A stretch of 64,000 bases of DNA from an endosymbiont of unidentified scaly snail isolate Monju (lineage in GTDB: Bacteria > Pseudomonadota > Gammaproteobacteria > Chromatiales > Chromatiaceae). Where the stretch lies: NCBI RefSeq assembly GCF_000801295.1, contig NZ_AP012978.1:1798001-1862000 (forward strand), in the 5' to 3' direction. Below the pieces are notes generated by a model that had not been told where the DNA came from, did no database searches, and was given only the letters and a program-made list of their open reading frames with translations. This document shows, one piece after another, positions 38,979 to 50,788 of the stretch. Within the stretch, counting starts at the first letter, position 1. Every line of letters starts with the position of its first letter. The translations under genes were made by a program, and so were the position numbers.

Positions 38979-40988
38979 TTACCGGGAAGCCCCTCCCTCC
39001 TGCCGTTGCCAGGCCGATTCCTGCCTCTGGCCCAGCATGGCCGCATGCAGCACCGAGCGCAGCTTGGCCGGCTCCACCGGCTTGGCGAGGAACTGGAAAC
39101 CGGCCTCCAGCGCAGTGTGCTCCACCGCCGGGTCCTGCTCGGCGGTGATGAGCACACCCAGGAAGCCATCGCCGTGACGCGCGCGGTAATGATGCAGCAG
39201 ATCCAGACCATAGGTCCGGTCGTTCAGACGATAGTCCATGAGCACGATGTCATGCACCGGCTGGCCCTCGGCGGCATCGAGGAAGGCCTCGGCGCTGTCC
39301 AGGCAACGCACTTCCCCGCCCCAGCGTTCGAGTACGGTGCGCGTGGCCTCGAGGATGTCGGGGTCGTCGTCCACGCAGAGGATGCGTCGACCCTCCAGCC
39401 AGCGGGTCTTGAAACTTCGGCTGTCGCCGGCACGGGCCGGACGCTCGGCCACCTGGACACGTGGCACGATCACACTGAAGGTACTGCCCTCGCCCTCGCG
39501 TGAACGCACCTGCAGGCGGTGCCCCAGCAGCTCGGCCATGCGCTCGCAGATCGCCAGTCCCAGGCCCACACCCTCGGTGGCGTGATCGAGCTGCTGGAAC
39601 TCGCGGAAGATGGCCTCCAGCTTGTCCGGCGGGATGCCGCGCCCGGAATCGCGTACCTCGATGCGGATGGCGTCGGCACCGGCGCGGCGGCACACCACCA
39701 GGATACTGCCCTCGCTGGTGTAGCGGATGGCATTGGAGAGGAAGTTCTGCAGGATGGAGCGCAGCAGGTTGCGGTCCGAGCGGGTACCGCATTCGCTGCC
39801 GCGGATGCGCAGGTTCAGCCCCTTCTGGCGAGCCAGCACCGAGAACTCGTTGTACAGGACGTCGAACAGCGGCTGGATGGGGAACTCGGTGATCTCGGGA
39901 TGCATGGCGCCCGCATCCAGCTTGGAGATGTCGAGCAGCGCGCGCAGCAGGTTCTCCGCCGAGGACAGGGCCGAGAGCGCGTTGCGCGCCAGCGCCTGGC
40001 GCTCGTCGCCCGCCAGGTCCTCGTACAGCGCGCCCAGATACAGCTTGGAAGCACCCAGCGGCTGGGTGAGGTCGTGGCTGGCCGCCGCCAGAAAGCGGGA
40101 CTTGCTGCGCGTCGCCTCCTCGAGCTGGGCATTGAGCTCGGACAGGCGGCGGGTGCGTTCGGCGACCTTGGATTCCAGGCTCTCGTTGACCCGCGCCAGC
40201 TCGCGCTCGGCGGCCTTGATCGCGGTGATGTCGGTGAAGGTGGTGATGAACCCTCCATCCGGGAGGCGCGCCCCCTGGGTCTGGATCACCCGGCCATCGC
40301 GCCACTCGCGCACATAGGTATAGGGCCGGCCATGACGCAGGAAATCCAGGCGCTTGCGCACATTCTGCTCCACAGACCCTTCCAGCAGCGGCCCCAGGCC
40401 CCGCGTGACATTGAAACGGATCACCTCCTCGATCGGCTTGCCCACATAGAGAAAATCCGGCGGAAACTCGAACAGTTCCAGGTACAACCGGTTCCAGGCC
40501 AGAAGACGCAGGTCGATGTCCACCACGCTCACCGCCTGGCCGATGTGATCGAACGTCACCTGCAGGATCTCGCGGTTGAACTGCAGGGCCTGACCGGCGG
40601 TATCCAGCAGGCGGTAGAGATTGTCCGGTCCCTCGTCCACGCTGCCGCGCAGTGCGGTCTCCACCAGATGCCCGGCGGTGGCGGTGCCGATGCTGCCGGC
40701 CAGCAGGTGCTGGGCCTGGCGCAGCAGCTCGTCGGTCACCCGCTCGTTGTGCTGACGCGCCGGATCCCAGCCCTGTTCCAGGAAGAAATGGCGGGTGCGC
40801 TCCTCGCCGGTGAAACGGCTGCACAGCTCGAACAGGTCGGCCACCCGCAGGCGATGACCGGGCCGCTCGTGCGGGGCCTCGTGCAGGTCGACATAAGCCG
40901 AGGCCTGCAGGCGGTCGATGAAGGAATGCCGCGCGCGCAGCGACACCAGCACATAGAGCACCAGGTTGGCGCCCAGGCTCCAGAACAC
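38979..40988 (-). CDS. CrbS-like sensor kinase, PAS-HisKA-HATPase-REC part
   Basis: 669 residues from the first ATG (MFWSLGANLVLYVL), which is within the last membrane helix. A STAC-like linker (about 45-130) is followed by a PAS domain (150-260), coiled coil, H-box ASHDLTQPL, N-box QNFLSNAIRY, G-boxes (DSGRGIP, GVGLGLAI) and a C-terminal receiver (CVDDDPDILE, VLMDYRLND). In CrbS/MxtR this is one chain with the SLC5-like symporter encoded just upstream (40997-42328). Here the two frames are offset and a segment seems missing, so the true protein is probably a fusion. Confidence 0.85.
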   Translation of the reverse strand: MFWSLGANLVLYVLVSLRARHSFIDRLQASAYVDLHEAPHERPGHRLRVADLFELCSRFTGEERTRHFFLEQGWDPARQHNERVTDELLRQAQHLLAGSIGTATAGHLVETALRGSVDEGPDNLYRLLDTAGQALQFNREILQVTFDHIGQAVSVVDIDLRLLAWNRLYLELFEFPPDFLYVGKPIEEVIRFNVTRGLGPLLEGSVEQNVRKRLDFLRHGRPYTYVREWRDGRVIQTQGARLPDGGFITTFTDITAIKAAERELARVNESLESKVAERTRRLSELNAQLEEATRSKSRFLAAASHDLTQPLGASKLYLGALYEDLAGDERQALARNALSALSSAENLLRALLDISKLDAGAMHPEITEFPIQPLFDVLYNEFSVLARQKGLNLRIRGSECGTRSDRNLLRSILQNFLSNAIRYTSEGSILVVCRRAGADAIRIEVRDSGRGIPPDKLEAIFREFQQLDHATEGVGLGLAICERMAELLGHRLQVRSREGEGSTFSVIVPRVQVAERPARAGDSRSFKTRWLEGRRILCVDDDPDILEATRTVLERWGGEVRCLDSAEAFLDAAEGQPVHDIVLMDYRLNDRTYGLDLLHHYRARHGDGFLGVLITAEQDPAVEHTALEAGFQFLAKPVEPAKLRSVLHAAMLGQRQESAWQRQEGGASR

Positions 40989-40996
40989 CCCGTGGG

Positions 40997-42328
40997 TCAG
41001 GTAGTCGTCGAAAGACCAGCCGAACAGGGCGCGCGCCGCCAGTACAGCCCTCCGACCAGTGCCGGCAGGAACTGGATGGCCGCGGCAAAGGACAACAGGC
41101 CGATGCTGTAGAGCGACTTGCCGCTACCGCCTGCCAGGTAGTAGCCATAGGCCAGCAGCATCAGGCCGAGGATGGTCAGGCGCCGGATGAGCAACAGACG
41201 GCGATGCAGCTCCTGTCCTTCGGAACGTCGTCCGTAACGCACCATCAGCGGGAAGATCAGGTCGTTCGAGACCATGGTGCTCAACGCCAGGGTGGAGACG
41301 ATCACCATGCCGGTGGCGGCCGAAAAGCCCCCCAGGTAGGCCAGCACGGTGAGCAGCTCGTGATCGGTGCGCAACGGCAGGAACAGCACGAACAGGTCGG
41401 CGTTGCCGCTGTTCCCCAACAGCTGCAGGCCGGCGGCGGTAATCGGAATCACCGCGACGCTGAACAGCAGCAGGTACAGCGGGAAGCCCCAGCGCGCGAA
41501 CGGCAGTTCGTTGCCCCGCCCCTCCACCGCGAGTACGTGAAACTGGCGCGGCAGGCAAAGGATGGCAGCGGCCGCCAGCAGGGTACGGGTGAGGAAACCG
41601 GTATCCAGCGTCCAGTCACGGAAAGGGGCGGCAGCCATGGACAGGGCGGCGAGCCGGTCGGGCGTGGCCGCCAGGCGGGTCAGCAGATGCCAGGCCAGCA
41701 CCGCGATGGCCAAAAAGGCCGCCAACTTGATGATCGATTCGAAGGCGATGGCGTGGATCATGCCACGGTGGTGCACCGTGGCATCAATGGTGCGTGCGCC
41801 GAACAGGATGGCGAACACCGCCAGGATCAGGGTCAGCACGAAGGCGGTGTCCAGGTTGGGCAACAACGGCAGTGCGGAGGAACCCGCAGGGCCCAGGGCG
41901 TCGTAGGCGCTGGCCACCGCCTTGATCTGCAGGGAGATGTAGGGCAGCGTGCCGAGCAGCGCGATCAGGGTCACCAGCGCCGCCACCAGGTGACTCTTGC
42001 CATAGCGGCTGGCGATGAAGTCGGCGATGGTGGTCGCCTTCTGGCGCTTGGCCACGCGCAGCAGTTTCTTGACGAAGGGCGCGAACAGCACGAATACCAG
42101 GATGGGCCCCAGATAGATGGCAAAGAACGAAAAGCCACCCTGGGCGGCATTGCCGACCGCGCCGAAGAAGGTCCAGGAGGTGCAGTAGACGGTCAGCGAC
42201 AGGGTATAGATCAGCGGCTGATGACGCGAGACGTGGCCCTCGGGCTGGGCATCGCCACGATAGGCGATATAGAACAGCACCCCCAGGTAGAGGGCGACGA
42301 CCGCGACGATCAGCTCGGCGCCAAGCAA
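40997..42328 (-). CDS. CrbS-like sensor, SLC5/sodium:solute symporter part (truncated)
   Basis: 443 residues with about 12 membrane helices of the SSS/SLC5 fold (VYCTSWTFFGAVGNAAQGG, GRRSEGQELHRRL between late helices). It ends QFLPALVGGLYWRRA and then an out-of-frame APCSAGLSTTT. In CrbS relatives the YW.(R/K).A position is followed by roughly 50-60 more residues and two helices before the FWSLGAN segment that here opens the kinase ORF. So about 150 nt or more are missing and the frame is shifted near 41040. It starts 23 nt after ilvD on the same strand. Confidence 0.8.
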   Translation of the reverse strand: MLGAELIVAVVALYLGVLFYIAYRGDAQPEGHVSRHQPLIYTLSLTVYCTSWTFFGAVGNAAQGGFSFFAIYLGPILVFVLFAPFVKKLLRVAKRQKATTIADFIASRYGKSHLVAALVTLIALLGTLPYISLQIKAVASAYDALGPAGSSALPLLPNLDTAFVLTLILAVFAILFGARTIDATVHHRGMIHAIAFESIIKLAAFLAIAVLAWHLLTRLAATPDRLAALSMAAAPFRDWTLDTGFLTRTLLAAAAILCLPRQFHVLAVEGRGNELPFARWGFPLYLLLFSVAVIPITAAGLQLLGNSGNADLFVLFLPLRTDHELLTVLAYLGGFSAATGMVIVSTLALSTMVSNDLIFPLMVRYGRRSEGQELHRRLLLIRRLTILGLMLLAYGYYLAGGSGKSLYSIGLLSFAAAIQFLPALVGGLYWRRAPCSAGLSTTT

Positions 42329-42351: not shown

Positions 42352-44211
42352 TCAGGACTTGCACCGCAGCTGCGACAGGTCGCGCACGGCACCACGCGCC
42401 GCCGAGGTGGTCAGTGCCGCATAGGCCTGCAACGCCTGCGACACCGAACGCTCCCGGTTCAACGGCTGCCAGGCTGCCTCCCCGCGCGCCTCCATGGCCG
42501 CGCGCCGCCGCGCCAACTCCTCGTCGCTCACCGCGATGCGGATACGGCGATTGGGGATGTCGATCTCGATGGTGTCGCCTTCCTCGACCAGACCGATGTT
42601 GCCACCCTCGGCCGCCTCGGGCGAGCAGTGACCGATCGACAGCCCCGAGGTCCCGCCCGAGAAGCGCCCGTCGGTGATCAGGGCACAGGCCTTGCCCAGC
42701 CCCTTGGACTTGAGATAGCTGGTGGGATAGAGCATCTCCTGCATGCCCGGCCCACCCTTGGGGCCTTCGTAGCGGATGATGACCACATCGCCCGGCTGGA
42801 TGCGGTCGCCGAGGATGGCCTCCACGGCCGCATCCTGGCTCTCGAAGATGCGCGCCGGCCCCGAGAACACCAGGATGGACTCGTCCACCCCGGCGGTCTT
42901 GACGATGCAGCCGTCCTCGGCGAGGTTGCCGTAGAGCACCGCCAGCCCACCATCGCGTGAATAGGCATGTTCCAGGTCGCGGATGCAGCCATTGGCGCGG
43001 TCGGTGTCCAGATCCGGCCATTGTGCGCTCTGGCTGAAGGCCACTTGGGTGGGAACACCGCCCGGGCCGGCCAGGTAGCGCTGGCGCACCGTCTCGTCGG
43101 GATCACGCCGGATGTCCCAGGCCTCCAGCGCCTCGCCCATCGAGGGCGCGTGCACCGTGGGTACGTCACGGTGGACGAGTCCGGCTCGGTCCAGCTCACC
43201 CAGGATACCCATTACCCCACCCGCGCGGTGCACGTCCTCCATGTGGTACTGCGGCGTCGAGGGCGCCACCTTGCACAGGTGCGGCACCTTGCGGCTCATG
43301 CGGTCGATGTCACTCATGGTGAAGTCCACCCCGGCCTCGTGCGCCGCGGCCAACAAGTGCAGCACGGTATTGGTCGAGCCGCCCATGGCAATGTCCAGCG
43401 CCATGGCGTTCTCGAAGGCCTCGAAGGTGGCAATGTTGCGCGGCAGCGCCGTCTCGTCGTCCTGCTCGTAATAGCGCCTTGCGAGCTCGACGATGCGCCG
43501 CCCCGCCTCAAGGAACAACTCGCGGCGCTCGGTGTGGGTAGCCACCAACGAGCCATTACCCGGCAGCGAGAGCCCCAGCGCCTCGGTCAGGCAGTTCATG
43601 GAATTGGCGGTGAACATGCCCGAGCAGGAACCGCAGGTGGGACAGGCGGAACGCTCGATCTGCTCGACCTCCTCGTCCGTCTCGCGGTCGTCGGCGGCGG
43701 CAACCATGGCATCCACCAGGTCGAGCTTGATCTCGCCCCTGCTCGCCAGCCGCACCTTGCCCGCCTCCATGGGTCCGCCTGAGACGAAGATCACCGGGAT
43801 GTTCAGGCGCAGCGCGGCCATCAGCATGCCAGGGGTGATCTTGTCGCAGTTGGAGATGCATACCAATGCATCGGCGCAGTGCGCGTTGACCATGTACTCG
43901 ACCGAGTCGGCAATGAGATCGCGCGAGGGCAGCGAATAGAGCATGCCGCCATGCCCCATGGCGATGCCGTCGTCCACCGCGATGGTGTTGAACTCCTTGG
44001 CCACGCCCCCGACCCTCTCGATCTCGCGCGCCACCAGTTGCCCCATGTCCTTGAGGTGCACGTGCCCGGGCACGAACTGGGTGAAGGAATTGGCAATCGC
44101 GATGATGGGCTTGTCGAAATCGCCTTCCTTCATGCCAGTGGCGCGCCACAGCGCGCGGGCGCCGGCCATGTTGCGACCGTGAGTGGTGGTGCGGGAACGA
44201 TACTGCGGCAT
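42352..44211 (-). CDS. ilvD: Dihydroxy-acid dehydratase IlvD
   Basis: 619 residues, as in E. coli IlvD (616). Iron-sulfur ligands lie in [11 protein letters not shown] and [17 protein letters not shown], a third in the N-terminal region. Family segments [20 protein letters not shown] and [15 protein letters not shown] are intact. It dehydrates dihydroxy-isovalerate and dihydroxy-methylvalerate in valine and isoleucine synthesis. It lies alone upstream of the CrbS genes; other ilv genes are not in the window. Confidence 0.98.
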
Positions 44212-44249: not shown

Positions 44250-44612
44250 ATCGGCCCGGGGACGGGCCTCCTACAAGGGCAAGGACGATTCAGCCCGGGG
44301 GACGGGCCTCCTGCGGCAGAAGCGACCTCCTCACCGCGAACGATTCGGCCCGGGGACGGGCCTCCTACGGTGGGAGCGGCATCCCCGCCGCGAACGATTC
44401 GGCCCGGGGACGGACCGCCTACGGTGGGAGCGGCATCCCCGCCGCGAACATTCGGCCCGGGGACGGACCGCCTACGGTGGGAGCGGCATCCCCGCCGCGA
44501 ACGATTCGGCCCGAGGACGGGCCTCCTGCGGCAGGAGCGGCGTCCTCACCGCGAACATTCGGCCCGAGGACGGGCCTCCTACGTGTAGGAGCGGCGTCCC
44601 CGCCGCGAACCG
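44250..44612. repeat. Tandem array of REP-like palindromes (BIME-like)
   Basis: About 360 nt made of seven type 2 hairpins (TTCGGCCCGGGGACGGGCC then TCCTAC) alternating with six type 1 hairpins (GGGAGCGGC..CCGCCGCGAA), giving a unit of about 54 bp. Copies at 44343-44504 are nearly identical, older ones at the ends have diverged. It sits between the upstream side of ilvD and the end of the GGDEF/EAL gene. It is the largest cluster of the family in the window. Confidence 0.9.
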
Positions 44613-44630: not shown

Positions 44631-46469
44631 TCAATCGCCTTGCACGATGTGCAGGCGCCCGGTGACCGGCAGGGGCTCGGGGCGGGCCAGATGGAAACCC
44701 TGCAGGTAGTCTACCCCGAAGCCGCGCATGCACTGCACCGTCTTCTGATCCTCGATCATCTCCGCGACCGTCTCCACGCCCAACACGCGAGCGATCTCGC
44801 AGATCATGCGCACCGACACCGCCGACAAGGGGTCAGACAAGGCACGGCGCACGAACTGGCCGTCGATCTTGATGAAATCCACCTGGATCTGGTGCAGGTA
44901 TCCCAGTGAGCTCATGCCCGCGCCGAAATCGTCCAGCATCAGTCGGTAACCGCGCTCGCGCAACTGCTGCGCCAGGCGCCCCGCAACCTGCAGATTGCTG
45001 ATCGCCACGGTCTCTGTGACCTCGAAACAGACCCGCTGCGGGTCCACGCCATGATGCTGTGCCTGGGCATGGATATGGTCCAGCAGGTTCTCGTCGGTCA
45101 GGGTCTGGCCCGACAGGTTGATGGTGCAGATGCTTTCCCGCGGCATCACCGATGGATCGCTCATCGCCTGCATCGCCAGCTCGATCACGTGGTGGTCGAT
45201 GGCGCGCATCAGGTCGAAGCGCTCGGCCGAGGGGAGAAAGACGCCAGGCAGCAGATCGTTGCCCTCGGCATCGCGCAGCCTCAACAGCAACTCGTACATG
45301 GCGGGCTCGCCATCCTGGGCCAGTGCACGCCAGATCGGCTGCCGATAGAGCACGAAACGATTCTCGTCCAATGCCTCCTGCAGGCGCGGCAGCCACTGGA
45401 TCTGACGCTTGCGTTCACCGATCACGCGATCGTCGGCACGCGACACGTGCACCGTGTTGCGTCCGGCCTCCTTGGCCGCATGGCAGGCGAGATCCACGTT
45501 GGTCATCAGCTCCTCGAAAGAGCCGGAAGTCGCGTCCACCGGCACCACACCCAGGCTGGCGTGGATCTCCATGGCCTGGCCGCCCCACAGGAAGCGGATG
45601 GTCTGCAAACGCTCGCGCAGCCGGTGCGCCATCTCCGATGCTGCCTCGAGATCGGGGGTGCGCATGAGCACCGCAAACTCGTCACCTCCCAGGCGTCCCA
45701 GACAATCCTCTTCGCGTAGAACGTGCTGCAGAACCTCGGCCACCTGCTTGAGCAGGCGGTCCCCGGCCTGGTGACCATGCGTGTCGTTGATGAGCTTGAA
45801 ACGATCAAGGTCGATGAAGATCAGGGCATGCGACACACCCTCCTCGATCGAAAGCACCAGCGCACTGCGTACCCGCGCCTCGAAGGCCGTGCGATTGAGC
45901 AGCCCGGTGAGCGCATCATGGTTGGCCTGGTAGGTGAGGCGTGCCGTCAGCTCGTGTTCGTGACTGATGTCGCGGATCGCCACCACGACTCCCTGGCGCT
46001 CGATCTCGCGAAGCCGGGAGACCCGGATGTTCACCGGGATGCGATCGCGTGCTGGCGTGTGCAGCAGCAGATCCGGAAACTGCTCTTGCCCGCTCATCCG
46101 TTGCAGCCAGCCATGCAGGGCCTCCAGGGGCGCCCGGGTACGCGTATCCAGCAGCACCAGGACGTCTTCGGCACGGCGCCCCGAGAGTGCCGCGGCATCC
46201 AAGCCCAGCATGCGTTCTGCCACCCGGTTGGCATAACGAATGCGAAAGTTCTCGTCGAGCATCAGGATGGCATCCGAGATGGAGCGCATCGCCCCATCGG
46301 CCCGCCGCCGTTCCTCCTCGAGCTCGCGTTCCTTGCGCGCCAGTTGTACGCGGACCTCCTCCCGCTTCTGCAAGGCCACGAGCAGGGACAACGAGGCCAG
46401 TCCGACGAACAAGGGCAGAAAGAACGCAGAGGGGGACAGCAGCTCATCCGTTCGCAGATAACGACTCAT
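44631..46469 (-). CDS. PAS-GGDEF-EAL protein (probably the second half of a CHASE receptor)
   Basis: 612 residues from MSRYLRTDELLS. A membrane helix (about 13-33), coiled coil, PAS (60-170), GGDEF (RLGGDEFAVLM, with RxxD site REED five residues before) and EAL domain follow. EAL is written ELL (YELLLRL); NLSGQT, FEVTET, DDFGAG and LQGFH are kept. Both synthesis and breakdown of cyclic-di-GMP are possible. The start overlaps the CHASE ORF stop by 4 nt. Adding one base in C6 at 46476-46481 would fuse them into the classic TM-CHASE-TM-PAS-GGDEF-EAL receptor. Confidence 0.88.
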   Translation of the reverse strand: MSRYLRTDELLSPSAFFLPLFVGLASLSLLVALQKREEVRVQLARKERELEEERRRADGAMRSISDAILMLDENFRIRYANRVAERMLGLDAAALSGRRAEDVLVLLDTRTRAPLEALHGWLQRMSGQEQFPDLLLHTPARDRIPVNIRVSRLREIERQGVVVAIRDISHEHELTARLTYQANHDALTGLLNRTAFEARVRSALVLSIEEGVSHALIFIDLDRFKLINDTHGHQAGDRLLKQVAEVLQHVLREEDCLGRLGGDEFAVLMRTPDLEAASEMAHRLRERLQTIRFLWGGQAMEIHASLGVVPVDATSGSFEELMTNVDLACHAAKEAGRNTVHVSRADDRVIGERKRQIQWLPRLQEALDENRFVLYRQPIWRALAQDGEPAMYELLLRLRDAEGNDLLPGVFLPSAERFDLMRAIDHHVIELAMQAMSDPSVMPRESICTINLSGQTLTDENLLDHIHAQAQHHGVDPQRVCFEVTETVAISNLQVAGRLAQQLRERGYRLMLDDFGAGMSSLGYLHQIQVDFIKIDGQFVRRALSDPLSAVSVRMICEIARVLGVETVAEMIEDQKTVQCMRGFGVDYLQGFHLARPEPLPVTGRLHIVQGD

Positions 46470-47335
46470 GTGCAGCCCCCCAGTCCATCCAGCGTGGCCT
46501 GTATGGTGGTCAGGCGCAGTCCCAGGTCGCCGTCTTCGAATACCGGCCTCACTATCACACCACCGCCCGTTGCCTTCCCAGCAGGCACGGGACCGAGCAC
46601 CAAGGTAACCTCCGGGTGCAACCTTTCGAGCTTGCTGACCATGACCTGCGGGTCCACCCCGAACAGGAACAGGCCGTCGAGCTGAACCAGGCGGCCGTGC
46701 GTGTCGATCGGCGCGAAAAACCCCCGGTAAGTGGGCATGACATAGAACACCAGCCCATTGGCCACAGGTTCCGGACGCCACCCTTCGAGCACGGCCGGCA
46801 TGCCCGCGGCAGCCAACTCGCGCACCTGGGAAACGGTGTTGCCATCCAGGAGCACATCAAACCCCAGCAGGCGCAACAACCGGGGACTGTTCGGCTCGAT
46901 GAAGCGGATCGGCAGGCGCCCGCGCTTGCCGGGTATCAGCTCCCGTGCTTCCTGACTGCGGATACGATAGGTGGGATAGCCATGCTCGATCATCTCCGCC
47001 ACGAAAGCGTCTTCTTCACCCTGGTCCACCCAGGCGGCGAAGGCCACCAGCTGCACCCCCGGGGTGTTGTAACGCATGGAGCTGGCCAGCGCGGAAAGAC
47101 GCGAGGCATCGAATTCGTTCATCACCTGGTAGCTGGAACCGATGGCCGTGAGCATAGCCGCGGTGGTGGCACGTACCTGCTGCAGTTCCTCGATCGCACT
47201 CTGCCCGGCGTGCAGAAAGGCCTGACGATAACCCTCGACACGGGCCGCCAGCACCATGACCAGAGTGAGCAGCCCCGGCAGCAGGAACGCCATCACGCGA
47301 CCGGACCAGCGCGCTGTCCAGCGCCGCCGGTTCAT
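46466..47335 (-). CDS. CHASE-type periplasmic sensor domain protein
   Basis: 289 residues. One N-terminal membrane helix (about 12-32) is followed by a periplasmic domain with CHASE features (MLTAIGSSYQVMNEFDASRL, YPTYRI, GFDVLLDGNTVSQVRELAAAGM-like segment, YRGFFAPID). It lacks a second membrane helix and an output domain; these are supplied by the next ORF. Overlaps of 4 nt on both sides tie it to the binding protein before and the GGDEF/EAL protein after. It may be one broken gene with the latter. Confidence 0.82.
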   Translation of the reverse strand: MNRRRWTARWSGRVMAFLLPGLLTLVMVLAARVEGYRQAFLHAGQSAIEELQQVRATTAAMLTAIGSSYQVMNEFDASRLSALASSMRYNTPGVQLVAFAAWVDQGEEDAFVAEMIEHGYPTYRIRSQEARELIPGKRGRLPIRFIEPNSPRLLRLLGFDVLLDGNTVSQVRELAAAGMPAVLEGWRPEPVANGLVFYVMPTYRGFFAPIDTHGRLVQLDGLFLFGVDPQVMVSKLERLHPEVTLVLGPVPAGKATGGGVIVRPVFEDGDLGLRLTTIQATLDGLGGCT

Positions 47336-48294
47336 TGCAGGGTCTCGAAACGCTTGGCCCTGCCGCGCAACCTGAGCGGCAACTCGATACCTGCCTCGCG
47401 CAACAGGGACTCGTTCATCCACAGATCCCATCGCTGGTTCGCAATGATGGGGATCTCCGAGGGCTTCACCCCCTCGAGGATCGCCAGTGCGGCCTCGGCC
47501 GCCCAGCGCCCCTGCTCCGCCGGGATCTTGGTGAATCCCAGCATGCTCATGGACATCATCCACTCGTGGCTGGTTACGCTTAGCCGCCGCGTATGCCCGG
47601 CAATCGCCCGCCTCGCCGCAGCGAAGTTCCAGTCGGCGATACCGGCATGACTGCCGATCACCAGATAGGGATGGTCCTGGGCCTGCCGGTAAGCCGCCAC
47701 CCATTGATCACGACGGGAGACCAGACGGTACTCGACGCTCAGGCCCAGTGCCTCGGCGACCTTCTGGAAACGCGCAAGATTCTTGCGTTCCGTGGCAGTG
47801 TCAGCGGCCAGGTAGAAGAAATGGTCGCCATTGCCCGTGAGCAACTGCGCCTCGCGGATCAGGGGACGAACCGGGGCGACCTCGATCATGCCGGTCACGT
47901 TGCTGTAGGGGAAACCGTACTCGGCGACCGACCAGTTCACCCCGCAGAACACGAAGGGGATGGCGGCATCGCGGAAATAGGGCGCGATGAGATAACGCGC
48001 GGCATTGTCGTCCGCAGCAATCACCACCTGGGGATGCCATTGCTCGATCAGCGCCCTGGCACGCCGGGCTGCGGCTTCCTTGTCCGCCTGCGTCTTGTGG
48101 CGCTTGGTGTCCATGTCGAACTGACGCAGCTCACAACGCCCTCTCAATACCGCATCGATGCCTCGTTGCACGCCATCCGACCAGGCATAACCCGGGTGAT
48201 AGGACGACACGAAAAGGCAGCGAGGAAGATCTGCCCAAGACGGGGAAGCCAAGCAAAATGCCAGGCAGGCGAGCCAGAACCAGCGCTGTCTCAT
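47332..48294 (-). CDS. ABC_sub_bind-family periplasmic binding protein
   Basis: 320 residues from the ATG of MRQRWFWLA, which opens a signal peptide cleaved near PSWA. The mature part has the PF04392-type two-lobe fold (CLFVSSYHPGYAWSDGVQRG, VIAADDNAARYLIAPYFRD, IPFVFCGVNWS, YLVIGSHAGIADWN). There is no permease or ATPase nearby, while a CHASE and a GGDEF/EAL ORF follow with 4-nt overlaps. It probably serves as a ligand-binding input to cyclic-di-GMP signalling rather than transport. The ligand is unknown. Confidence 0.85.
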   Translation of the reverse strand: MRQRWFWLACLAFCLASPSWADLPRCLFVSSYHPGYAWSDGVQRGIDAVLRGRCELRQFDMDTKRHKTQADKEAAARRARALIEQWHPQVVIAADDNAARYLIAPYFRDAAIPFVFCGVNWSVAEYGFPYSNVTGMIEVAPVRPLIREAQLLTGNGDHFFYLAADTATERKNLARFQKVAEALGLSVEYRLVSRRDQWVAAYRQAQDHPYLVIGSHAGIADWNFAAARRAIAGHTRRLSVTSHEWMMSMSMLGFTKIPAEQGRWAAEAALAILEGVKPSEIPIIANQRWDLWMNESLLREAGIELPLRLRGRAKRFETLQ

Positions 48295-48416: not shown

Positions 48417-49025
48417 ATGATCCCCCCTTTGTCCATGGTCCGAAAGAGCGAACGCACCCGGCAACGCATCGTGGAAGCAGCCAACCGGCTGTTCTATCAC
48501 CAGGGGTACCACAACACCTCATTCAGCGACGTGGTGCGTGCCGCCGGCGTGCCGCGCGGCAATATCTACTACTACTTCAAGACCAAGGACGCCATCCTGC
48601 ATGCGGCCATCGACTACCGGCTGGAACGCATCCGCAGCATGCTCGAGGGCTGGAACGGCCAGTTCCGCACGCCCATCGAACGCCTGCAGCGCTTCGTTGC
48701 CCTGCTCGACGACACCAGCGAGGCCCTGGTGCAATACGGCTGCCCCATGGGCTCGCTCAACGCCGAGCTGGGCAAGACCGACCTCGCCCTGCAGGAGCAC
48801 GCCGCCCAGCTGTTCCAGGTATTCCAGGAATGGCTGACCGACCAGTTCGCGGAACTGGGCTATGCCGGGCGCGCCAACGAACTGGCGCTCCGAGTGATGG
48901 CCATCGGCCAGGGCATCAGCATGATGGCGCACGTCCATCACGACACCAATCTGCTGAAACGCGAACGCCAGCGCCTCCGGCGCTGGATCGATCAGCTCGC
49001 CGACGGCAGCGGGGACTGTCTCTGA
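48417..49025 (+). CDS. TetR-family transcriptional regulator
   Basis: 202 residues from the ATG at 48417; an ATG at 48435 (MVRKSER) is equally possible and neither has a clear ribosome-binding site. The N-terminal helix-turn-helix is typical (RQRIVEAANRLFYHQGYHNT, VPRGNIYYYFKTKDAIL). The ligand domain has one Cys (YGCPMGSLNAELG), the layout of AcuR/NemR-like TetR proteins that respond to reactive compounds. Targets are unknown; the divergent periplasmic-binding operon (122-nt gap) is the nearest candidate. Confidence 0.9.
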   Translation: MIPPLSMVRKSERTRQRIVEAANRLFYHQGYHNTSFSDVVRAAGVPRGNIYYYFKTKDAILHAAIDYRLERIRSMLEGWNGQFRTPIERLQRFVALLDDTSEALVQYGCPMGSLNAELGKTDLALQEHAAQLFQVFQEWLTDQFAELGYAGRANELALRVMAIGQGISMMAHVHHDTNLLKRERQRLRRWIDQLADGSGDCL

Positions 49026-49112: not shown

Positions 49113-49832
49113 TCAGACCGGTAACAGCGGCAGGTCGAGATAACCACCGTCACGCCGTGCCATGGCCGAATCGAGCACCGCCTGCCCGCCCAGGCGCTCG
49201 ATGACCGCCTCCCCGGCATCGGCGGCGAGCGCGTCGAGCAGGCGCAATTCACGCACCAGTTTCGGCTCGAGGCTCCTGATGCGGTGCATTTCCAGCCCTT
49301 CCTCGCGGCTGCGCCGGCGCTGTTCCAGTTGCAGGGCACGCTTGGCCTCCTCGAGCTGTTCGCGCAGCGGCAGGGCCAGGTCGAAACATACCAGGGCCTC
49401 GCGCCGGGAATCGAGCACGCCGGCCTCGCCCGGCTCGACCAGGCGCGCCACCAACTGCTCGCGCGGTCGCCAGCTCAGTCGTTCCGCGACCACGGCATCG
49501 TCGTCGCGCGGGTCGGGCGGAAACTTGTGGAAGCCCCAGCGGGCGCCCAGGGCACACTCGATAAGCACCTTGTCCTGGTCGATGCGACAGTCACCGGCCG
49601 TCTCGTCGCTCACCCGCACCCAGGCACGAGGATCGTTCTTCCAGGCACAGAAGTCACGGTCCGGCGGCCGGCCATAGGCCGCCTCCAGGGCTTCCCAGGT
49701 GTGCATGAAGGCCTGCCATTCACGCTGGTAGTCGGGGTTGCGGCGCAGAAACTCCCAGGCCCAGGCCGCGCCGCCGCAGCCGCGCAGCGCCTGGTAGCCG
49801 GTCTCGTCACGCCAGTCGGCAATTCGCATCAT
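49113..49832 (-). CDS. DUF6499-type (transcriptional-regulator-like) protein
   Basis: 239 residues. The N-terminus MMRIADWRDETGYQALRG then AAWAWEFLRRNPDYQREW is the short DUF6499 'WRD..WEFLRRNP' domain found in DUF2285-linked proteins of proteobacteria. The rest is an unassigned alpha/beta region ending in charged helices (EQLEEAKRALQLEQRRRSRE). Function is unknown; DNA binding has been presumed for the family. Two adjacent ATG codons (49832, 49829) are possible starts. It is divergent from argE with a 45-nt gap. Confidence 0.75.
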   Translation of the reverse strand: MMRIADWRDETGYQALRGCGGAAWAWEFLRRNPDYQREWQAFMHTWEALEAAYGRPPDRDFCAWKNDPRAWVRVSDETAGDCRIDQDKVLIECALGARWGFHKFPPDPRDDDAVVAERLSWRPREQLVARLVEPGEAGVLDSRREALVCFDLALPLREQLEEAKRALQLEQRRRSREEGLEMHRIRSLEPKLVRELRLLDALAADAGEAVIERLGGQAVLDSAMARRDGGYLDLPLLPV

Positions 49833-49877
49833 GCGCCCATACTGGACGAAACCCCGTGACTGGTGCAATCTCGACAC

Positions 49878-50788
49878 ATGCCCTACCCCGACCTGCCAGA
49901 GATGATGCGGCGGCTGATCGGCTCGCCCTCGGTGAACAGCGTCAGCCCCGATACGGCCTGGGCACCGCCGACATGAAGGGCTTCTTCGCGGTGGTGCTCG
50001 AGGCGGTCCGCGATCTCGACCTGCACACCCTGAAACAGCCGCTGGTGCTGCTGGCCACCGCCGACGAAGAGAGCAGCATGTGCGGCGCACGCAGCCTGCT
50101 CGACCTGCACCGCCGGCTGGGGCGCCATGCGGTGATCGGCGAGCCCACCGGCCTGCGCCCGGTCCGCCTGCACAAGGGCATCACCATGGAGGCGATCCAC
50201 GTCATCGGCCGCTCCGGGCATTCCAGCGATCCCGCGCTGGGCAACAATGCACTCGAGGGCATGTACCGGGTGATCGGCGAACTGCTGGCCTGGCGCGACG
50301 AACTGCAACGACATCACCACAACCCGCTGTTCGCGGTCGAGGTGCCGACACTCAACCTCGGCCATATCCACGGCGGCGACAACCCCAACCGCATCTGCGG
50401 CCAGTGCGAGCTGCACTTCGACATCCGTCCCCTGCCCGGCATGTCGCTCCAGGGGCTGCGCGAGGAACTGGACAGCCGCCTGGCACGCCTGCAGGAGACG
50501 ACCGGCCTGCGCATCCACCGCGAGTCCCTGTTCGCGGGCGTGCCCGCCATGGAGACACCCGCCGAGGCCGAGATCGTGCGCGCGGTCGAGGCGCTCACCG
50601 GGTATCCTGCGGGGGCGGTCGCCTTCGCTACCGAGGGCCCCTTCCTCAACGCCATGGGCATGGACACCGTGATCCTCGGGCCCGGTCACATCGACCAGGC
50701 CCACCAGCCCGACGAGTACATCGAACTCACCCAGCTCGAACCGGCGCAGCAGATCGTCCGCCGGCTGATCGAGCGGTTTTGCCTGTAA
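49878..50788 (+). pseudogene. argE: Acetylornithine deacetylase ArgE with internal deletion
   Basis: The ATG at 49878 begins a good ArgE start (MPYPDLPEMMRRLIGSPSVN then SVSP). At about 49949 the sequence jumps, in another frame, to RYGLGTADMKGFFAVVLEAV and continues with an intact ArgE body: ATADEESSMCGARSL (catalytic Glu pair), GEPTGLRPVRLHKG, the dimerisation domain, and FATEGPFLNAMGMDTVILGPGHIDQ. Roughly 80 residues are absent, including the metal-binding GHTDTVP segment. As written no complete enzyme can be made. ArgE frees ornithine from acetylornithine in arginine synthesis; argA lies nearby. Confidence 0.85.

Follow-up and report, generated by a model that had tools for sequence, protein, structure and literature searches.

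The locus at positions 44631-48294 of a 64,000-nucleotide stretch from an endosymbiont of the unidentified scaly snail isolate Monju (contig NZ_AP012978.1; "the window" below is this whole stretch) raises the question of why a binding protein of the PF04392 family is encoded beside a membrane protein with the domains for synthesis and breakdown of cyclic di-GMP (c-di-GMP), and what the two would do together. We consider it likely that they form a two-gene sensory unit, in which the liganded PF04392 protein would dock on the CHASE domain of a single receptor and shift the balance between its GGDEF and EAL activities, and in which the apparent break in the receptor would be a one-base insertion or deletion (indel).

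Pfam profile searches define the parts. The binding-protein gene (47332-48294, minus strand) encodes 320 amino acids (aa) and matches PF04392 at 30.9 bits, above the curated cut-off of 25.9; the N terminus is hydrophobic and resembles a signal peptide, and the protein is presumably secreted. Its only NCBIfam match, to TrpX, fell below cut-off (21 bits vs 390). The next open reading frame (ORF), on the same strand (46466-47335), is 289 aa long in the window and carries the first part of the receptor, an N-terminal membrane helix and a PF03924 CHASE domain (48.9 bits; cut-off, 25). The third (44631-46469, minus strand) is 612 aa long in the window and carries the second part, a membrane helix followed by PAS, GGDEF and EAL domains (PAS_4, 45.8 bits; GGDEF, 143.9 bits; EAL, 196.1 bits). 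ATGA overlaps are present at both junctions.

We determined how often such binding proteins are encoded beside receptors. Homologues (E 1e-10) were found in 37 of 369 genomes sampled evenly from the class and 65 of 210 genomes of the family, while an order search, which recovered mostly these same genomes, gave 62 of 195; all three counts include weak, distant matches. At the best 80 of 109 relatives, which we kept as named loci, a transmembrane receptor was encoded directly downstream (that is, by the next same-strand ORF, beginning within 400 bases) in 69 cases, 44 with CHASE and 25 without, while a kinase or chemoreceptor gene lay directly upstream in three (L202, L215 and L219). Not all of these downstream receptors are complete. 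The frame is broken in L189, which has no output, and in L214, and contig ends truncate L194 and L205. With a cruder script-based criterion, a neighboring receptor was detected downstream at 66 of 79 loci, compared to 5 of 63 upstream. Thus, the pairing is far above chance. Since the receptor is directly downstream at 69 of the 80 loci, the idea that the binding protein acts on the receptor is strengthened.

The paired receptors differ in both sensor and output. All 44 CHASE receptors matched CHASE in Pfam, together with GGDEF (27), EAL (26), HisKA (15) or SpoIIE (1). The other 25, mostly chemoreceptors and kinases, matched HAMP (20), MCPsignal (15), dCache_1 (11), HisKA (8) and SpoIIE (1). 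The SpoIIE-type phosphatase receptors follow the binding-protein gene at L198 (6907-8715) and L216 (6993-8594); one has CHASE, the other a different sensor part. The loci span Gammaproteobacteria, Alphaproteobacteria, Thermodesulfobacteriota, Myxococcota, Campylobacterota, Bdellovibrionota and Ignavibacteriota. Of 79 homologues of the binding protein, 77 matched PF04392 at E 0.001. In a tree of 79 binding proteins, receptor labels were clustered (21 changes, compared to a mean of 45.5 after shuffling); CHASE-linked rows lay on one side, with outputs switching repeatedly among them, and several forks are weak. Tandem two-domain binding proteins of 618-636 aa were also present (L123, L124, L125, L218 and L238); at L123-L125, a soluble-looking GGDEF gene precedes the tandem protein and a two-helix membrane protein follows it.

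Binding protein and receptor are also found fused. At L135, PF04392 is followed by PAS, GGDEF and EAL in one protein that has no CHASE match in Pfam, and at L137 it is fused to a hybrid kinase; the PF04392 domains of these fusions are more distant ones. Script matches suggest similar fusions at L136, L138, L140, L141 and L142. For the reverse comparison, a CHASE profile from the paired loci gave matches in 93 of 339 class genomes. Because the profile was built from paired loci, this comparison is biased toward them. Of 28 CHASE hits scoring at least 150 bits, 23 adjoin a binding-protein hit and one lies at a contig edge (G187); the other four are weighed below. Among lower-scoring loci, none of the 16 inspected (L279-L294) had an adjoining binding-protein gene, and at least four lower-scoring hits (G292, G245, G192 and G317) do adjoin one. 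At L277 and L278, the receptor follows a gene of 676-689 aa with no binding-protein gene between them, while at L040, L047 and L051 a gene of 673-678 aa is followed by the binding protein. This looks like binding-protein loss, with the long ORFs matched by size and place only.

To understand where a ligand would be read, we compared the two proteins in sequence and structure. In the 27 rows with GGDEF-EAL receptors, the binding protein had the highest median pairwise identity (0.52), followed by GGDEF-EAL (0.39) and CHASE (0.20). The binding protein exceeded CHASE in conservation in all 351 pairs, as expected if it is the binding protein that recognizes the ligand. Identities of binding protein and CHASE were correlated (0.73, a value matched in none of 5000 permutations; 0.51 after allowing for GGDEF-EAL), with shared ancestry inflating both values. 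The invariant columns of the 79 binding-protein rows include Y32, D95, D96, N120, W121 and E260, which may line a pocket. The binding-protein model (pLDDT 94.3) best matched the PF04392 structures 6hnj, 3lkv, 6hni and 3lft (Z 26.2 to 22.0), although the N-terminal half of the protein did not align by profile to 3lft or 6hni. Three of these best fold matches, which share Pfam family and fold with the window protein, are CD0873, VC_1101 and SP1069 (6hnj, 3lkv and 3lft), described in excerpts of PMC6816091 as binding Tyr, Phe and Trp. We considered and rejected these amino acids as the ligand here. The selectivity positions of the solved relatives align to H243 and A259 (columns with His in 41 of 79 and Glu in 62 of 79 rows), and because these positions differ, the ligand cannot be carried over. 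The CHASE model (pLDDT 87.6) matched the sensor domains of PcrK and AHK4, and the sequence profile agrees. On the output side, all 17 checked positions of the GGDEF, the I-site RxxD and the EAL are present in the window, and over the 27 rows the catalytic residues are intact in 27 of 27 for GGDEF and 26-27 of 27 for EAL (25-27 of 27 overall). Since all checked catalytic residues are present, both synthesis and breakdown of c-di-GMP appear possible.

A model that accommodates these data is that the dedicated PF04392 protein would capture a small molecule in the periplasm and, once liganded, would dock on the CHASE domain of the two-pass membrane receptor. The signal would then pass through the second membrane helix to PAS and shift the balance between GGDEF synthesis and EAL breakdown, so that cytoplasmic c-di-GMP would presumably rise or fall. 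The proposal in the earlier note that this locus is a ligand-sensing input for c-di-GMP, with the binding protein as the ligand carrier, is supported by the conserved pairing, the natural fusions and the finding of no partner transporter beside the gene or in genome searches with PF04392 and PF02653.

Whether the receptor is one protein or two was judged mainly from its congeners. Full-length homologues of the binding protein are present in four other genomes of the genus (G429, G428, G431 and G433), and in all four the receptor is a single frame. In relatives, CHASE lies between two membrane helices and is followed by the cytoplasmic output within one protein, while in the window these parts are in two frames. 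In the nearest relative (G429; CP037918.1, Chromatiaceae bacterium CTD079), the binding protein is 87% identical and the receptor is an open frame of 1024 aa, identical to the window at 82% in the CHASE part and 92% in the remainder. DNA alignment revealed that the window is one base short relative to G429 within a G run, six Gs long in the window (46476-46481, minus strand), exactly where the two frames part. Across the 56,922 window bases that align, 6 of 41 G429 ORFs (at least 120 aa and at least 75% identical) were split or gapped in the window, compared to 3 of 37 in the reverse direction, the ORFs having been taken mechanically such that some may be spurious. One of the six is a gene at 49329-50788 that we take to be acetylornithine deacetylase-like; relative to G429, it is missing an internal stretch of ~235 bases that includes the HTD motif, through either true lesion or misassembly. 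At 38985-42328, symporter-like and kinase parts form two frames with a ~130-base gap where G429 has one frame of 1163 aa.

Judged from sequence, the three ORFs are thus best read as two genes, one for the PF04392 binding protein and one for a CHASE-TM-PAS-GGDEF-EAL receptor (TM, transmembrane helix). Because of the one-base difference in the G run and the other gene-breaking lesions relative to G429, the split is probably an indel, and assembly error or recent mutation is more likely than a natural gene boundary. As all four congeners have one frame and the junction differs by one base, the second ATGA is most likely a by-product of the frameshift. Of the three ATGA-chained ORFs described earlier, the frames, their domains and both overlaps were confirmed, while a count of three genes was not, and a CHASE protein separate from a membrane PAS-GGDEF-EAL protein was not supported. 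We accordingly dropped, as the first reading, an operon of three genes in which CHASE is a free subunit. A genuine split, in which ATGA-coupled translation yields a two-subunit receptor of free CHASE and membrane PAS-GGDEF-EAL proteins, or in which the G run acts as a frame switch, strikes us as improbable: that both frames are open and joined by ATGA, and that the window version of the CHASE part yields a confident fold model, would fit it, yet it runs against the single frames of the congeners, the one-base difference between the frames and the number of other ORFs broken in the window.

The CHASE domain could instead bind a small molecule directly, as in cytokinin receptors, with the binding protein buffering, delivering or scavenging it or serving something else. 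Several observations weigh in this direction or against a dedicated pair. The solved CHASE domains of PcrK and AHK4, which the CHASE model matches, are direct small-molecule sensors, and the AHK4 entries are complexes with cytokinin within the CHASE domain itself. Four of the 28 strong CHASE hits (G310, G064, G313 and G212) have no adjoining binding-protein gene. No adjoining receptor was recognized at 8 of the 80 named loci (L168, L220, L221, L224, L238, L240, L242 and L243; L220 sits at a contig end), nor beside the paralogous binding proteins L063-L067, which like L242 come from Thiotrichaceae bacterium STC_44; the standalone paralogues L063-L067 show lower conservation. We nonetheless regard direct sensing as unlikely, since CHASE is far more variable than the binding protein and the same binding-protein family is paired with CHASE-less receptors and fused to receptors. 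The binding protein could also be an ordinary component of an ATP-binding cassette (ABC) transporter whose permease is encoded elsewhere, its place beside the receptor reflecting co-regulation only. A partner permease and ATPase are a trait of the family name (ABC_sub_bind) and not a requirement of the profile. As noted earlier for this locus, no partner ABC permease or ATPase gene lies beside the binding-protein gene, and searches of the genome with PF04392 and PF02653 revealed no fitting partner. In the search for PF02653, the one permease family covered, which we take to be the likely partner family, matches were confined to a Liv-type operon (window 32.9-38.0 kb) that carries its own binding protein. 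The genome has two PF04392 matches, the window protein and one other, and the gene of the latter (L073 5351-8700; C1 about 1918350-1921700) overlaps a HAMP hybrid-kinase gene. With the pairing also conserved across phyla, a role in transport is very improbable. A gene that we presume to be TonB-receptor-like, broken into two ORFs, precedes the second PF04392 gene at L073.

Two further genes flank the two-gene unit. Upstream is a divergent TetR-type gene (48417-49025), which was excluded from the unit because close matches beside the locus were limited to two congeners (97% and 85% identity); the sole further match was weak (35% identity). Downstream of the receptor, the gene at 42352-44211 is presumably dihydroxy-acid dehydratase-like. 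Between the receptor and this gene, a 54-base unit is repeated in tandem about six times (44285-44610); in a partial alignment, several indels set the corresponding congener sequence apart.

The arrangement of the genes indicates a large clade whose receptors are known. More tentatively, a dedicated PF04392 clade free of transporters may recognize one conserved signal, environmental or bacterial, and pass it to c-di-GMP turnover, histidine kinases, chemoreceptors and SpoIIE phosphatases, such that the ligand-reading part stays fixed while receptors change across at least four outputs and several phyla. Identifying one ligand of the conserved binding protein could reveal at once what many c-di-GMP, kinase and chemotaxis receptors respond to. 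A further caution is that the CHASE receptor of this genome, apparently split, should not be read as a new architecture. In the open-licence literature, which misses most subscription papers, we found neither the combination of PF04392 with a CHASE GGDEF-EAL receptor nor such a range of receptor types paired with a single PF04392 clade.

The principle of a receptor driven by a binding protein is already known. According to excerpts of PMC9602780, such receptors are thought to be common with few characterized, about ten cases involve sensor kinases, and PF04392 is among the search signatures used. Among structures, TorT-TorS and XylFII-LytS (3o1i and 5xsd) show a sensor protein complexed with a binding protein of the type I fold; we take both to involve other binding-protein and sensor families and kinase outputs. 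PcrK and AHK4 (6k62 and 3t4j) have a sensor fold like that of the window CHASE domain but are histidine kinases, and we know of no binding-protein partner for either. For receptors that act on c-di-GMP, two systems are closest. In ScrABC of Vibrio parahaemolyticus, periplasmic ScrB acts on the GGDEF/EAL receptor ScrC (PMC11315295). Our locus likewise joins a periplasmic binding protein to a GGDEF/EAL receptor, although the signal-making scrA is part of the operon there and no such gene was seen here. ScrB presumably belongs to a family different from PF04392. In NspS-MbaA of Vibrio cholerae, the binding-protein gene lies immediately upstream of the gene for the membrane GGDEF-EAL receptor, and liganded NspS associates with the periplasmic domain of MbaA and switches its net activity (PMC8079147). 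Opposite signs of output both occur naturally, in NspS-MbaA and ScrB-ScrC (PMC8079147, PMC11315295). MbaA has the motifs SGDEF and EVL (PMC8079147), while the window receptor has GGDEF and ELL. As in NspS-MbaA, a binding-protein gene adjoins a GGDEF-EAL receptor gene in the window; we take NspS to be a polyamine-type binding protein of another family and the periplasmic domain of MbaA to be other than CHASE.
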